A DNA stretch of 64,000 nucleotides from Pelagibius sp. GTDB taxonomy: Bacteria; Pseudomonadota; Alphaproteobacteria; Kiloniellales; Kiloniellaceae. Both the position numbers and the translations under genes were made by a program. The stretch covers positions 1-64,000 of the forward strand of contig NZ_JANQKD010000108.1 in NCBI RefSeq assembly GCF_028281305.1, written 5' to 3'. Position 1 is the stretch's first letter; every line of letters begins with the position of its first letter. Below are positions 27,064-47,756 of the stretch, one piece after another. The notes beneath the pieces are model-generated. The model was not told the origin of the DNA and did not search any database. It worked only from the letters and a program-made list of their open reading frames with translations.

Positions 27064-28419
27064 CTACGCTTTGGTGTCTGACGGCGGCGGTGTGCCGCCG
27101 TCCATCGCGTAGCGGTTCAGCTTGGCATAGAGGCTCTGGCGGCTCAGGCCCAGGAGTTCGGCCGCGGCCGTGCGGTTGCCGTTGGTCAGCTCAAGCGCCG
27201 ATTCGATGTAGTGCCGTTCGACAACGCCGACCGTATCCTTCACGAGGTCGCGCAGGGACGTGTTGCCGATCTGCTCGGTGAGCGTACTGACCAGCGTGCT
27301 GAGTTCCCGGCCTTGGGTGCTGTTCACCAGGCGCCGGCTCACGTCGCGGATAAGGACCCCGATATGCTGGGGATCGCCGTCCCTGTCACCGCTGGCGGAG
27401 AGCTCGACCTCGGTTTCCAGGCCCAGATCGCCGTGCACGGTCGTCGAGAACAGCCTGACCGTCCCATGGAGCTGAATGTTGGCCAGCAGGACAGTCAGAT
27501 CTGCGCCGGGCCGCCACAGCCAGCGGCTGAGCCGCTCTCCGACGACAACGGCTTCGGAGCCGGCCTGAACCAGGTCGAGGAAGGCCTGGTTGGTCCGCAG
27601 GACCGTGCCCTGCTTGTCGAGCACGACAAAGGCATCGGGAACCCGCGCGATGAGGTCGGCAATCGGCATCGTATCGTTGACGAGGCTCGCAGGAGCCTCG
27701 GCAGAGACGGGGGAGAGCTGAAGCAGGTACATCGGGCCCGGTCCAGCGGTCATCAGGGACGCGCGGACCAGCCAGGGTGTCTGGTCCTGGCCCATGTGGA
27801 TCATAACGGCGGGCGCTTTGCCCTGATCGCGGACCCTCTGCAGCATGTCCTCGAAATGCTGGCGCTCCTTCGCCGCGATCTCGGCCAGGAACTCGCCGCC
27901 CTGGGCCGACACGCCGAGCCCGCGGATCGCGACCGGATTGGCCTCCACGATATGCAGGTTCGAGGCACGGATCAGGAGCACCGCCTCGTTCGATGAGTCG
28001 AAGAGCAGTCGATAGCGGGTCTCGACTTCACGAAGCTTCCAGTAGTCGCGCTCCATGGCCTGCTGCGCGGCCACGAGGCGGGACTGCAGTTCGGCCACGG
28101 CCTGCAGGTTGCGCCCGATCGCGACCAGGCCCTGGTTGTCGCCAAGGCGCACCGCCGTGTACTCGATCGGCAGCTTCAGCCCGCTGGGAAAGTGCTGGTT
28201 AAGCTGGCGAAAGGCGGAGATCCCCCGGTCCCGCGCGTCTTCCAGCATGTGCTTGATCTTGTCGCCGCCGACGTCGCCGACCGTCTCGCTCCAGGCCCGC
28301 CCGCGCAGGCTCTCGACATCGCTGTCAGGGATCGCGGCGGAATGGGAGACGCGCTGGATGGTCCCCTCCATATCCAGATGGATGGTTATGTCAGGTTGTG
28401 CGACGTTCAAGCCTTCCAT
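27064..28419 (-). CDS. ppsR2: PpsR/CrtJ-family repressor paralogue lacking cysteine
   Basis: A 451-aa regulator: N-terminal PAS, Q-linker helix (AVAELQSRLVAAQQAMERDY), two more PAS domains and a Fis-type HTH (NRTAAAELLGLSRQSLYAKL). It has no cysteine anywhere; Tyr404 replaces the redox-active Cys that precedes the HTH in CrtJ/PpsR and in the second paralogue of this window. Bradyrhizobium PpsR2, linked to BrBphP, is the nearest known parallel. I infer a light-responsive, redox-insensitive repressor. The symbol follows that parallel. Confidence 0.92.
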   Translation of the reverse strand: MEGLNVAQPDITIHLDMEGTIQRVSHSAAIPDSDVESLRGRAWSETVGDVGGDKIKHMLEDARDRGISAFRQLNQHFPSGLKLPIEYTAVRLGDNQGLVAIGRNLQAVAELQSRLVAAQQAMERDYWKLREVETRYRLLFDSSNEAVLLIRASNLHIVEANPVAIRGLGVSAQGGEFLAEIAAKERQHFEDMLQRVRDQGKAPAVMIHMGQDQTPWLVRASLMTAGPGPMYLLQLSPVSAEAPASLVNDTMPIADLIARVPDAFVVLDKQGTVLRTNQAFLDLVQAGSEAVVVGERLSRWLWRPGADLTVLLANIQLHGTVRLFSTTVHGDLGLETEVELSASGDRDGDPQHIGVLIRDVSRRLVNSTQGRELSTLVSTLTEQIGNTSLRDLVKDTVGVVERHYIESALELTNGNRTAAAELLGLSRQSLYAKLNRYAMDGGTPPPSDTKA

Positions 28420-42592: not shown

Positions 42593-44496
<1,904 letters not shown>

Positions 44497-44603
44497 GATG
44501 CTCTCCTACCTGAGCCGGGCATACTTGAGCCGGGCCCACCTAAGCCTGTTCGACTGGCGCGTTCGCGATCTGCCGTGTGTGCTGCTGTCGGCGTTGCGGT
44601 GCC

Positions 44604-44663
44604 GATCGTCCCGAACCTTGTGGTCCTGAGACCTGTGGTCCCGAAAACTGTGGTCCGGGAACC
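44604..44663. repeat. 15-bp degenerate tandem repeats in the bchF leader
   Basis: TGTGGTCC recurs at 44619, 44634 and 44649 at a strict 15-bp period within units such as TGTGGTCCTGAGACC. A more diverged unit precedes them at 44604-44618. They lie 110-170 bp upstream of the bchF start. Confidence 0.7.
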
Positions 44664-44818
44664 CGTCCGAATGGCCGTCTTCCGGAAAGCCCCTGCGCAA
44701 CGATGCAAGGGTGATCCTGTTGAGCCGCTTTCGTGCCAGGGTCGGAAAGTCTGCACCGAACTCCTCCCCACGCGCCTTTTGCTTTGTTTCCGGGACTCTA
44801 GAACGGCTGTCGCGGAAG

Positions 44819-44852
44819 TGTCAAGTTTTATGGACGTAAATTAAAATGGACA
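44819..44852. promoter_or_regulatory. Composite PpsR-like operator upstream of bchF
   Basis: Two sites overlap by 2 bp: TGT-N12-ACG (44819-44836) and CGT-N12-ACA (44835-44852). Together they make a symmetric TGT-N12-ACGT-N12-ACA element of 34 bp in AT-rich sequence. The same layout recurs at 45107-45140. Each half has one mismatch to the PpsR consensus. Binding is inferred. Confidence 0.6.
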
Positions 44853-45106
44853 AATCGGATTTCGCGTCATCCCAGCGCCTCTGCGCTTCGGCTCATGCTG
44901 CCCATCGTCGGAGTCGCAGGGTGAGAGGCGGGCATGCGCGGCGGCGACGCGCGGCCGTCGTCTGTGTCGCTCAAGCCGGTCTTTTTCCACAGGCTGTGGA
45001 AGAACTTGGCATCGCAACCTGCTGCGCCGATTCGAACCTGGGTATAGGCTGTGGTGCAGATGAAGCGATGCAGGTCTTGTAAAGCGGCAGAGCAGCACGG
45101 ACGTTC

Positions 45107-45140
45107 TGTCAACTTTTTCTCACGTGAAGACTGCTTGACA
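45107..45140. promoter_or_regulatory. Composite PpsR-like operator upstream of ppaA
   Basis: TGT-N12-ACG (45107-45124) and CGT-N12-ACA (45123-45140) overlap to form TGT-N12-ACGT-N12-ACA, as at bchF. The outer arms read TGTCAA and TTGACA. The last six bases are also the candidate -35 box of the ppaA promoter, so occupancy would block polymerase. Confidence 0.6.
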
Positions 45141-45362
45141 GACCTGCGTGTGGGAACGTTCAATGGTTCGCGCAGATGCCCAAAGCCATAGCGGTCAAGA
45201 AGGCGGACGCGAAGGGGACTATCAAAACCAGAGGGGGCGTTTCACTCAGGGGATAAGTTCAGACAGGTAGGCAGATCTAGCTCCAGATTGGCGCTCGGAG
45301 ATCGACGGTAGTTACCTTCGCCAAAAATGCAGCCTGCGTTCTCGCTTTGAGGGAGGAAGGCA

Positions 45363-46262
45363 ATGGCTAGCTTTAGCGACGAAGGCCAGACGAAGGAATT
45401 TCTCAGGACCGAAGAACAGGTCCGCGACTACGATGCGCCTCCGGCTGATTTCAGTCACATCGCCGCGGTGGACGGCTCGGATGTCCGCTTCGACCGCCTG
45501 GTTCGCACGATAGAAGGAGAGATCATCCCGAGACTTGTCCTAGCTCACAAGGTGACTCCGCCCGAACATCAGGGCGGGCAAGAAAACTGGGGCAAGCCTT
45601 CGCCGGATGATGTGACCGAACTGACCAGTCTGGTTCTCAAGAGCGACTTCCCCGTTGCCATGGGCTACGTAACGCTGCTGCACGAGCGCGGCGTTGCGCT
45701 TGAGAGCATCTTCCTGGACCTGCTGGCGCCGACTGCAAAGAACCTGGGCGAGCTCTGGAAGCAGGATCTCTGCACTTTCTCCGATGTCACCATTGCTCTG
45801 GGCCGACTTCAGCAGATTCTGCGCGACCTCAGCTTTTCGACGCAGGGCGAGACGATTCCCTGGGAACAGGGGCGCCGCGCCCTCATCGCGCCGGCGCCGG
45901 GCGAGCAGCACAACTTCGGCGCCTTGATGGTGGCCGAATTTCTGCGCCGCGGCGGCTGGGACGTGGCCGTCGAGCCGGCCACCGACAAGCGGCATGTCGC
46001 GAGCATGGTGCGCGACGAGTGGTTTGCGGTCCTCGGTCTGTCGTTGAGCTGTGATGAAGGACTGGAAGCCCTGGCCGCGGAGATTGACGAGGTGCGCAGG
46101 GTGTCGCGCAATGACAAGCTATCCGTAATCGTTGGCGGTCGCGTGTTCGTCGAGCATCCCAAGTGCGTGTCGCAGGTCGGTGCGGACGCCATGGCCATTG
46201 ACGGTCACCACGCTGCCCTTCAGGCTGACAATTTACACACTTTGGTGATGGCGCATTGCTGA
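45363..46262 (+). CDS. ppaA: Cobalamin-binding photosynthesis regulator (PpaA/AerR family)
   Basis: A 299-aa protein with a helical region (about 90-160, GVALESIFLDLLAPTAKNLGELW) and a Rossmann-type B12-binding domain (LIAPAPGEQHNFGALMVAEF, VGGRVFVEHP). AerR/PpaA antagonises CrtJ/PpsR and, in Rhodobacter, uses cobalamin with light. The H in GEQHNFG is the candidate ligand residue. GGGAGGAAGGC precedes the ATG. ppsR1 follows by about 55 bp, the conserved pairing. Confidence 0.93.
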   Translation: MASFSDEGQTKEFLRTEEQVRDYDAPPADFSHIAAVDGSDVRFDRLVRTIEGEIIPRLVLAHKVTPPEHQGGQENWGKPSPDDVTELTSLVLKSDFPVAMGYVTLLHERGVALESIFLDLLAPTAKNLGELWKQDLCTFSDVTIALGRLQQILRDLSFSTQGETIPWEQGRRALIAPAPGEQHNFGALMVAEFLRRGGWDVAVEPATDKRHVASMVRDEWFAVLGLSLSCDEGLEALAAEIDEVRRVSRNDKLSVIVGGRVFVEHPKCVSQVGADAMAIDGHHAALQADNLHTLVMAHC

Positions 46263-46316
46263 TCTTGCCTGCACGGGTATCATCCGGCGATGTTGTCACG
46301 TATGACGGTGTAGGCA

Positions 46317-47756
46317 GTGAAGCACTTCAACGCGCCCTTAAAGACCCTGGGTGATCTCGACCCCAAAGCGGCATTCGGCCTGCTTGCAGCGTCTTCCGAT
46401 GTCGCCTTGATCCTGGACGAAAAGGGCGTTGTGCGGGACCTCGCACTGGGCAGCGACGAGATTTCTCTCGACGACTGCGGCGACTGGCTCGGCCAGCCCT
46501 GGGAAAAGACGGTCACGGTCGAAAGCCGCGAGAAGATCGAGGATCTTCTGCGCGATGCCGCGAAGCAGAAGGCGCCACGCTGGCGCCAGGTCAACCATCC
46601 CTCGACAAGCGGCAGCGACCTGCCCGTGCTCTATTCCGCCCTGCGGGTCGGAGACAAGGGGAAGGTCATTGCGCTGGGCCGCAATCTGCGGGAGTTCGCG
46701 GTGCTGCAGCAGCGTCTGGTCGAAGCCCAGCAGGCCGTGGAGCGCGAATACGCCCGTCAGCGCAGTGCCGAGACGCGCTACCGCCTGCTCTTCCAGGTCT
46801 CCTCCGAGCCGGTGCTCATCGTCGATGCGGCAAGCCAGCAGATCATCGAGGCCAATACTGCGGCCGAAGCCTTCCTCAAGGCCTATGCCAACAAGACCAA
46901 GCGCCCGCGCAAGACCGTCGGCTCCACCTTTCCGGATGTCCTCAGGGGTTTGAAGTCCGGGGGCCGCAAGGCCATCGACCACCTGCTGGCGACGGTTCGC
47001 TCCGCCGGGCGTGGCGAGGATGTCCGAGTCGCCACCGATGGGGACGAGCGCTTCAGCGTCGGTGCATCGCTGTTTCGTCACGAAAACGCGTCCTACTTTC
47101 TGGTGCGTTTCGCGCCGCTCAACAGGGACGGCAGCGTCTTCGAGTCGGGACCGCGTTCGCGGATGCTGGAGCTGGTGGAGGCCGCCCCCGACGGATTTGT
47201 CATGACGTCTCTCGACGGTCGGATCCTCAGCACCAACCGCGCCTTCCTCGACCTCGCGCAACTCGGGTCGGAGGAACAGGCGCGCGGCCAGCCTCTGGAG
47301 CGCTGGCTGGGGCGGCCCGGTGTAGACTGGAGCGTGCTGCGCGCAAATCTGCGCGAGAACCAGGCGATCCGCCTCTTTGCGTCTTCGGTGCAAGGCGAGC
47401 AGGGCCTGGTGGCGCAGGTGGAGATTTCCGCCGTTGCCGTCACCGAGGGTGAGCTGCCCTGCTACGGCTTCATGATCCGCAATGTCGGCCAGCGCCTCAA
47501 GTCTAACAATCCGGCGGGCAAGACCGTGCCGCGTTCGGTCGAGCAGCTCACCGGTCTTGTCGGGCGTGTCTCGTTGAAGGAAATTGTGCGGGAAACGACG
47601 GATGTCATCGAACAGCTCTGCATCGAAGCCGCCCTGGAGCTGACCGGCGATAACCGAGCCTCTGCGGCCGAAATGCTGGGGGTCAGCCGGCAGTCGCTCT
47701 ACGTCAAACTGCGCCGCTTCGGGCTCGCCGACGTGGCGCCGGAAGAAGAGGCGTGA
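46317..47756 (+). CDS. ppsR1: PpsR/CrtJ-family repressor with cysteines
   Basis: A 479-aa repressor: N-terminal region, Q-linker (EFAVLQQRLVEAQQAVEREY), PAS domains at about 150-260 and 285-390, and a Fis-type HTH (NRASAAEMLGVSRQSLYVKL). Cys435 in IEQLCIEAALELTG sits where CrtJ/PpsR carries its redox-active cysteine; two further cysteines are present. Start GTG at 46317 gives the family-like KHFNAPLKTLGDLDPKAA. I infer an oxygen/redox-responsive repressor antagonised by PpaA. Confidence 0.94.
   Translation: MKHFNAPLKTLGDLDPKAAFGLLAASSDVALILDEKGVVRDLALGSDEISLDDCGDWLGQPWEKTVTVESREKIEDLLRDAAKQKAPRWRQVNHPSTSGSDLPVLYSALRVGDKGKVIALGRNLREFAVLQQRLVEAQQAVEREYARQRSAETRYRLLFQVSSEPVLIVDAASQQIIEANTAAEAFLKAYANKTKRPRKTVGSTFPDVLRGLKSGGRKAIDHLLATVRSAGRGEDVRVATDGDERFSVGASLFRHENASYFLVRFAPLNRDGSVFESGPRSRMLELVEAAPDGFVMTSLDGRILSTNRAFLDLAQLGSEEQARGQPLERWLGRPGVDWSVLRANLRENQAIRLFASSVQGEQGLVAQVEISAVAVTEGELPCYGFMIRNVGQRLKSNNPAGKTVPRSVEQLTGLVGRVSLKEIVRETTDVIEQLCIEAALELTGDNRASAAEMLGVSRQSLYVKLRRFGLADVAPEEEA

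Follow-up and report, generated by a model that had tools for sequence, protein, structure and literature searches.

A candidate compact PpsR/CrtJ tandem operator over the predicted -35 box of bchF in Pelagibius sp. and other purple bacteria

The 64,000-nucleotide stretch of Pelagibius sp. DNA analysed here (the window) is a photosynthesis gene cluster in which bchF and ppaA flank a region with two operator-like elements (Table 1). We found that the pattern TGT-N12-ACGT-N12-ACA matches the window exactly twice, once on the bchF side and once on the ppaA side, against a mean of 0.01 expected from 100 dinucleotide-preserving shuffles. These two 34-bp copies, pointed out in an earlier note on this DNA, are the only matches in the whole 5 Mb assembly, where the pattern read backwards matches once. 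As the note had described, each half has one outermost base off the TGT-N12-ACA consensus (TGT-N12-ACG and CGT-N12-ACA) and the CG common to both makes up the shared ACGT. The halves overlap by 2 bp and their centres lie 16 bp apart, which is outside the 7-9 bp gap of canonical tandem sites. A core matrix (positions 2-17) trained on 8-bp-gapped pairs gives the four cores in the window between 10.2 and 21.3 bits, with 19.2 and 21.3 bits for the bchF copy and 12.1 and 10.2 bits for the weaker ppaA copy. The other window pairs were said to be 8 bp apart, and this holds for all four that the matrix detects, before bchC, at crtD/crtE, before bchG and before bchE, each with a centre distance of 26; single TGT-N12-ACA sites are likewise present.

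In an alignment of the window with two Pelagibius MAGs, the two elements, together with their -35/-10-like boxes, stand out as conserved islands, the intervening DNA being mostly barely alignable. An RNA element was rejected, because the element is situated upstream of the predicted start and a scan of 43800-46400 yielded no Rfam family at gathering scores. Between the two operators there is also an inverted repeat, TTCCACAG-G-CTGTGGAA (44984-45002), which resembles two facing DnaA-box-like sequences and is retained in all three aligned genomes although the DNA around it has diverged. A longer form of this repeat occurs in 11 of the 242 fetched loci, all of them the same region in the window's genus.

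Table 1. Predicted regulatory features and neighbouring genes in the window (positions of the whole stretch).
Feature	Coordinates	Strand	Basis
Compact composite operator of the bchF operon, reads TGTCCATTTTAATTTACGTCCATAAAACTTGACA towards bchF	44819..44852	-	pattern, matrix, alignment
Promoter-distal PpsR-like site TGT-N12-ACG, about -64 to -47	44835..44852	-	matrix/alignment; position relative to +1 inferred
Promoter-proximal PpsR-like site CGT-N12-ACA, about -48 to -31	44819..44836	-	matrix/alignment; position relative to +1 inferred
Predicted bchF -35 box TTGACA, within the proximal site	44819..44824	-	alignment, hexamer enrichment
Predicted bchF -10 box TAGAGT, 18-bp spacer	44795..44800	-	sequence, alignment, hexamer enrichment
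Second compact composite operator, facing ppaA; outer arms strong, inner arms weak	45107..45140	+	pattern, matrix, alignment
Predicted ppaA -35 box TTGACA	45135..45140	+	alignment
Predicted ppaA -10 box TTCAAT, 18-bp spacer, same in three aligned genomes	45159..45164	+	alignment
bchF, longest ORF (predicted start codon), first gene of bchFNBHLM-lhaA-puhA	43897..44496	-	
ppaA/aerR-like B12-binding protein gene	45363..46262	+	PF02310; name ppaA from position and the earlier note
ppsR copy adjoining ppaA	46317..47756	+	TIGR02040, 473.9 bits
Second ppsR copy	27064..28419	-	TIGR02040, 494.8 bits

As a genome-wide marker the loose pattern was rejected: of the whole genomes of 98 relatives, 50 contain a match, and 72 contain one to its backward control. 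Because of this lack of specificity, the analysis was moved to a strict pattern ending in TTGACA and to the matrix. In a class sample of 385 genomes, the strict pattern is present in 19 of the 27 bchF-bearing genomes versus 6 of the 358 others (2x2 table, p = 5e-21), its backward control being found in 12 of the 385, of which one has bchF. Among 40 phototroph genomes, exact strict matches lie at 36 places in 31 genomes (backward control: 1). All but one of these 36 are located at the promoters of photosynthesis genes, namely bchF or bchN (30), ppaA (3), ppsR (1) and puhA (1), and the last is beside dxs and a cytochrome c gene. Genus g3, which belongs to the window's family and whose genomes have no bchF match, has a distinct palindrome that also satisfies the loose pattern (TGTAAAT...CTTACGTAAG...ATTTACA; L043, L044) and recurs in several g3 genomes. 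In the two loci opened it adjoins what we take from the sequence to be a Cys/Met PLP-enzyme-like gene, and we judged it unrelated.

The bchF loci came from 61 genomes of the order (16 with bchF) and from the class sample (27 of 385); dropping two shared genomes and one edge fragment (G060, with a bchF fragment at a contig edge and no upstream DNA) left the set of 40. We scanned 109 photosynthesis-cluster regions of these genomes together with the window (2.16 Mb) using a 16-bp core matrix trained only on 8-bp-gapped TGT-N12-ACA pairs (58 pairs, at most one mismatch), G060, G794 (no locus) and the C232 fragment of G059 being left out of the counts. Pair centre distances peak at 26 (54 pairs) and 16 (41 pairs), and in one locally shuffled copy no distance gathered three or more pairs. 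There is no peak at 15 or 17, that is, the 16-bp distance is rigid. A further peak at 13 (28 pairs) was treated as mostly an artefact of the 26-bp pairs: 22 of the 28 are within 26-bp chains, in which the right half of a site and the left half of its neighbour together mimic a site, and the remaining six fall outside this explanation.

The 41 pairs with the 16-bp distance are positioned before bchF (32), bchN (3), ppaA (3), ppsR (1) and puhA (1), and between dxs and a cytochrome c gene (1, in G164). We determined that 35 of the 40 genomes have the 16-bp form upstream of bchF or, if bchF has been relocated, upstream of bchN; the five without it are G030, which has a 26-bp pair instead, G095, G124, G305, with a degenerate form, and G310. 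Conservation in relatives, on which the earlier note made its reading depend, is borne out, and of the two copies the one at bchF is widespread. The ppaA copy is found in 3 of the 40 genomes, all Pelagibius; its centre, TCACGTGA, differs from that of the bchF copy, TTGACA-18-TTCAAT is retained, and it looks like a lineage-specific reuse of the compact architecture. The note had also argued from two copies in one divergent region against chance, and the copies are indeed beyond chance, but this argument is weaker than the phylogenetic one. Core bases are 100% conserved in the aligned elements, a figure partly forced by the matrix that chose them.

Several genomes offer natural experiments. Where bchF is split from bchN (G005, G023 and G026), the compact element stays with bchN and the sites found at bchF are spaced by 24 to 26 bp, and in G384, where puhA is on another contig than the bch operon, puhA has a compact operator of its own (L198:10628-10661). 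This strengthens the specificity of the element for these genes. G404 has a further compact operator in the interval from ppaA to ppsR (L206:11767-11800), a position that suggests a separate, putatively autoregulated ppsR promoter. In turn, the compact operator of G164 is located between dxs (PF13292) and the cytochrome c gene (L159:10554-10587), and the reach of PpsR may there extend into isoprenoid precursor supply.

The distal site was also assessed from the proximal one alone. In 77 bchF loci the proximal site was taken as anchor (core score of at least 9 and a right arm TTGACA) and [TC]GT was counted at upstream offsets 8 to 60. Outside the Rhodobacterales-like loci, of the 54 promoters with an anchor, 46 show [TC]GT at offset 16 and at most five at any other offset; in the Rhodobacterales-like loci it is at offset 16 in 1 of 19. 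"Rhodobacterales-like" here takes in family f30 and G095 of family f43, grouped by site type with the taxon names presumed. Family f30 was so treated because its sites resemble the R. sphaeroides ppaA and bchF sites described in PMC4344238, and G095 was assigned by its site after inspection, its regrouping giving 46 of 55, or 47 of 55 should it be the single Rhodobacterales-like locus that matches at offset 16. The tally at offset 16 includes L007, whose far site scores -5.2 and is probably there by chance. The first base of the anchor is C in 45 of the 54 other promoters and T in all 19 Rhodobacterales-like ones, so that the second site is absent together with the C-start compromise base. Four of the 77 loci have no anchor (L063, L245, L054 and L243), of which L063 (G404) has an element ending in TTGACG and L054 (G305) the degenerate form; in L065 and L048 a different site was chosen as anchor though the element is present.

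TTGACA is the sigma70 -35 consensus, and one might hold that the element is merely a good -35 box and the rest coincidence. We find this hardly credible, since a -35 box does not account for a far [TC]GT placed precisely 16 bp upstream in 46 of 54 promoters. The view of the earlier note that the element is a composite of two PpsR-type sites, beyond chance, is borne out by these promoters and by the 16-bp peak.

In gene orientation, the 35 bchF/bchN elements have TTGAC invariant at positions 29-33 and A at position 34 in 97%, and a TAgagT-like hexamer lies 18 bp downstream of the element. On the gene side, -10-like hexamers reach an enrichment score of 5.0 with an 18-bp spacer; on the far side the scores are 2.5 at 18 bp and 3.1 at 17 bp. 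A bidirectional promoter was considered and rejected, as the far arm read outward is without clear -10-like enrichment. If TTGACA, 18 bp and the -10-like box are taken as the promoter, the element spans about -64 to -31 and covers the predicted -35 box, leaving the predicted -10 box free, in departure from the canonical layout of one site on -35 and one on -10. The bchC and bchG pairs of these genomes mostly have a -35-like box in their upper site and a -10-like box in their lower one. Both architectures thus share the -35 site and place its partner on opposite sides, at distances that differ by 10 bp. At 10.5 bp per turn, the calculated rotation between dyads is about 189 degrees at 16 bp and about 171 degrees at 26 bp; by this calculation the dyads would be on opposite faces in both forms, one helical turn apart.

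The bases kept in the compact form are the G and C at the core ends, and those given up are the outer T or A; in ordinary sites too, the outer T is the least conserved of the three outer bases (T 91%, C 7%). Left/right symmetry beyond the fixed bases is barely higher within elements (6.17 of 12) than between different ones (5.91, sd 0.20), and the aligned elements show no clear covariation of an internal palindrome beyond the consensus. Two bases are common to the touching half-sites, neither of which is perfect, as would fit two sites that act as alternatives, with one PpsR dimer in either register and the shared CG barring double occupancy, the arrangement tuning occupancy and not cooperativity. 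We regard this as unlikely. The rigid 16-bp distance, with no peak at 15 or 17, speaks against it, and the far TGT/CGT, for which the anchored promoters were not selected, is kept at offset 16 in 46 of 54, which is more than the -35 site alone would lead one to expect. Moreover, the cores abut and do not overlap, and with dyads calculated to be about 189 degrees apart a clash between dimers is not obvious.

Judged from sequence, the element is probably a compact PpsR/CrtJ tandem operator that represses by masking the -35 box. In such an operator two PpsR sites (core G-N14-C, GTCAA-N6-TTGAC) would abut without a gap, their centres 16 bp apart instead of the usual 26, and the touching halves would give up their outermost T and A, so that the common centre becomes ACGT. 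The proximal site would hold the -35 box of bchF(NBHLM...puhA), and the distal site would lie upstream, leaving the -10 box free. Two PpsR dimers, probably as one tetramer, would sit on opposite DNA faces, and bound PpsR would repress by hiding the -35 box. PpsR is very probably the ligand, and all 40 genomes encode a protein over the TIGR02040 cut-off. Repression by -35 occlusion seems a likely outcome, and simultaneous filling of both sites somewhat likelier than single occupancy. PpsR of R. sphaeroides is reported to form tetramers and octamers (PMC3949515); a tetramer on the element is not assured, since under reducing conditions PpsR2 of Rps. palustris is reported to be predominantly dimeric (PMC6899989). 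A departure from the consensus at the outer bases lowers affinity in Rubrivivax crtI, where restoration of TGT cut the EC50 from about 80 to 31 nM, as given in PMC4452267.

A different PpsR oligomer or arrangement on the element, one of the suggestions of the earlier note, is plausible. Two other suggestions fared less well. With a single PpsR over the cut-off in 34 of the 40 genomes, 29 of which carry the element, it is unlikely to serve in telling PpsR1 from PpsR2; all five genomes without the element are among these 34, and G006, also single over the cut-off, has partial matches besides. Nor is there support for the need of a PpsR-PpaA complex, as in Ca. Thiodictyon syntrophicum the element lies in the 424 bp between ppsR and bchF, an interval with no B12-binding gene. 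The same locus counts against the proposal that the element is an upstream activation platform. In that scheme PpsR is held at -64 to -31 and leaves the -10 box accessible; an AerR/PpaA-like partner or the redox state would then make it activate bchFNBHLM-puhA, and the compact form would mean dual control, the 8-bp form plain repression. We consider this rather unlikely, although the second site does lie upstream of -35, whereas in most bchC/bchG pairs a -10-like box is covered.

Beyond the class, the element was found at bchF in all three promoters of f199, a family from another class of the same phylum, and in one (G911) of four further gammaproteobacterial bchF loci, from the class of G455, which is one of the three f199 cases. 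The 16-bp pair is missing in the other three of these newly scanned loci: G1044 has a 26-bp pair with the -35 box in the lower site, and in G899 and G821 the scanned stretch contains no PpsR-like site. Of 11 further new bchF loci, nine have the 16-bp pair and two (L221 and L232) a degenerate centre. Among ten named plasmid records, fetched after the rule was set, Ca. Thiodictyon syntrophicum (Chromatiaceae) and Novosphingobium capsulatum are positive, the latter with TCGT at the centre, and none of the eight Rhodobacterales has the 16-bp element. The element was also not found in 10 loci of family f30. As photosynthesis clusters may have moved between lineages, the counts are not all independent, even if the flanks of the element are little conserved among genomes. 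The compact switch is thus common in the purple bacteria examined and unseen in the Rhodobacterales examined, although switches of this kind have been studied in that group.

In G030 (L121, near 13845), as in G1044 (L246), the bchF -35 box is in the lower site and the upstream partner is at 26 instead of 16 bp; by their sequence, these two promoters are putative natural one-turn spacing variants. They also bear on whether another regulator of similar specificity, and not PpsR, reads the 34-bp palindrome, for both have a 26-bp PpsR pair at bchF with -35 in the lower site. Such a regulator would accord with the different centre of the ppaA copy (TCACGTGA), but we think it quite improbable, given that both halves score on a PpsR matrix trained without them and that the strict matches are at photosynthesis-linked genes.

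The compact operator resembles the tandem CrtJ/PpsR operator of bchC in site type, in having two sites and in placing one of them over -35 (-47 to -30 in R. capsulatus, as described in PMC5362033). There, according to the same source, the second site is downstream over -10 (-21 to -4) at a distance of 26, whereas in the compact element it is upstream at 16 and leaves -10 free. The bchF promoter of Dinoroseobacter shibae, as reported in PMC10890935, likewise has a site over the predicted -35 region, and mutating its sites derepresses; the second site overlaps -10 and the start, unlike the upstream one of the compact element. No 16-bp partner was found in the eight other Rhodobacterales examined. 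TGT-N12-ACG and CGT-N12-ACA sites as in the element are described for the pucB (9 bp) and crtI (8 bp) operators of Rubrivivax gelatinosus, in which the spacing of PpsR sites alters affinity, redox response and cooperativity (PMC4452267). The Rubrivivax spacings described there are 8 and 9 only, at pucB and crtI, and the compact element is at bchF. The opposite extreme, with the same protein and site, are crtI and pucB of R. capsulatus with CrtJ sites 76 and 240 bp apart (PMC4452267), and looping has been proposed for distant CrtJ sites (PMC9144470). CGT/ACG half-sites in published PpsR operators are known from the R. sphaeroides prrA ChIP site (PMC4344238), as well as from the Rubrivivax operators (PMC4452267). 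Hence, the site type and the regulator were already known, and what appears to be new is the abutting, upstream-directed arrangement and its distribution. We found no description of this arrangement in the open literature; an earlier mention is possible in subscription papers on Bradyrhizobium, Rhodopseudomonas or Rubrivivax.

As both halves contain a mismatch, scans that require TGT-N12-ACA miss the operator, and a main bacteriochlorophyll operon can then look unregulated. In Sediminicoccus sp. KRV36 (2024), PpsR sites were reported as detected only at bchC and puc, and their low number was discussed as a possible cause of weaker repression (PMC10949492); this count could be reread with the compact form in mind. 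The PpsR structures described in PMC3949515 and PMC9144470 are without the DNA-binding domain or are predicted models. The 16- and 26-bp forms would provide a natural spacing series, one helical turn apart, for the placement of PpsR oligomers on DNA. It is possible, if doubtful, that two PpsR architectures have been inherited, a 26-bp one locking both -35 and -10 and a 16-bp one for bchN...puhA, with another assembly that activates as well as represses, and that Proteobacteria originally had the compact form, which Rhodobacterales then lost. If so, the textbook model of PpsR would rest largely on a derived case.
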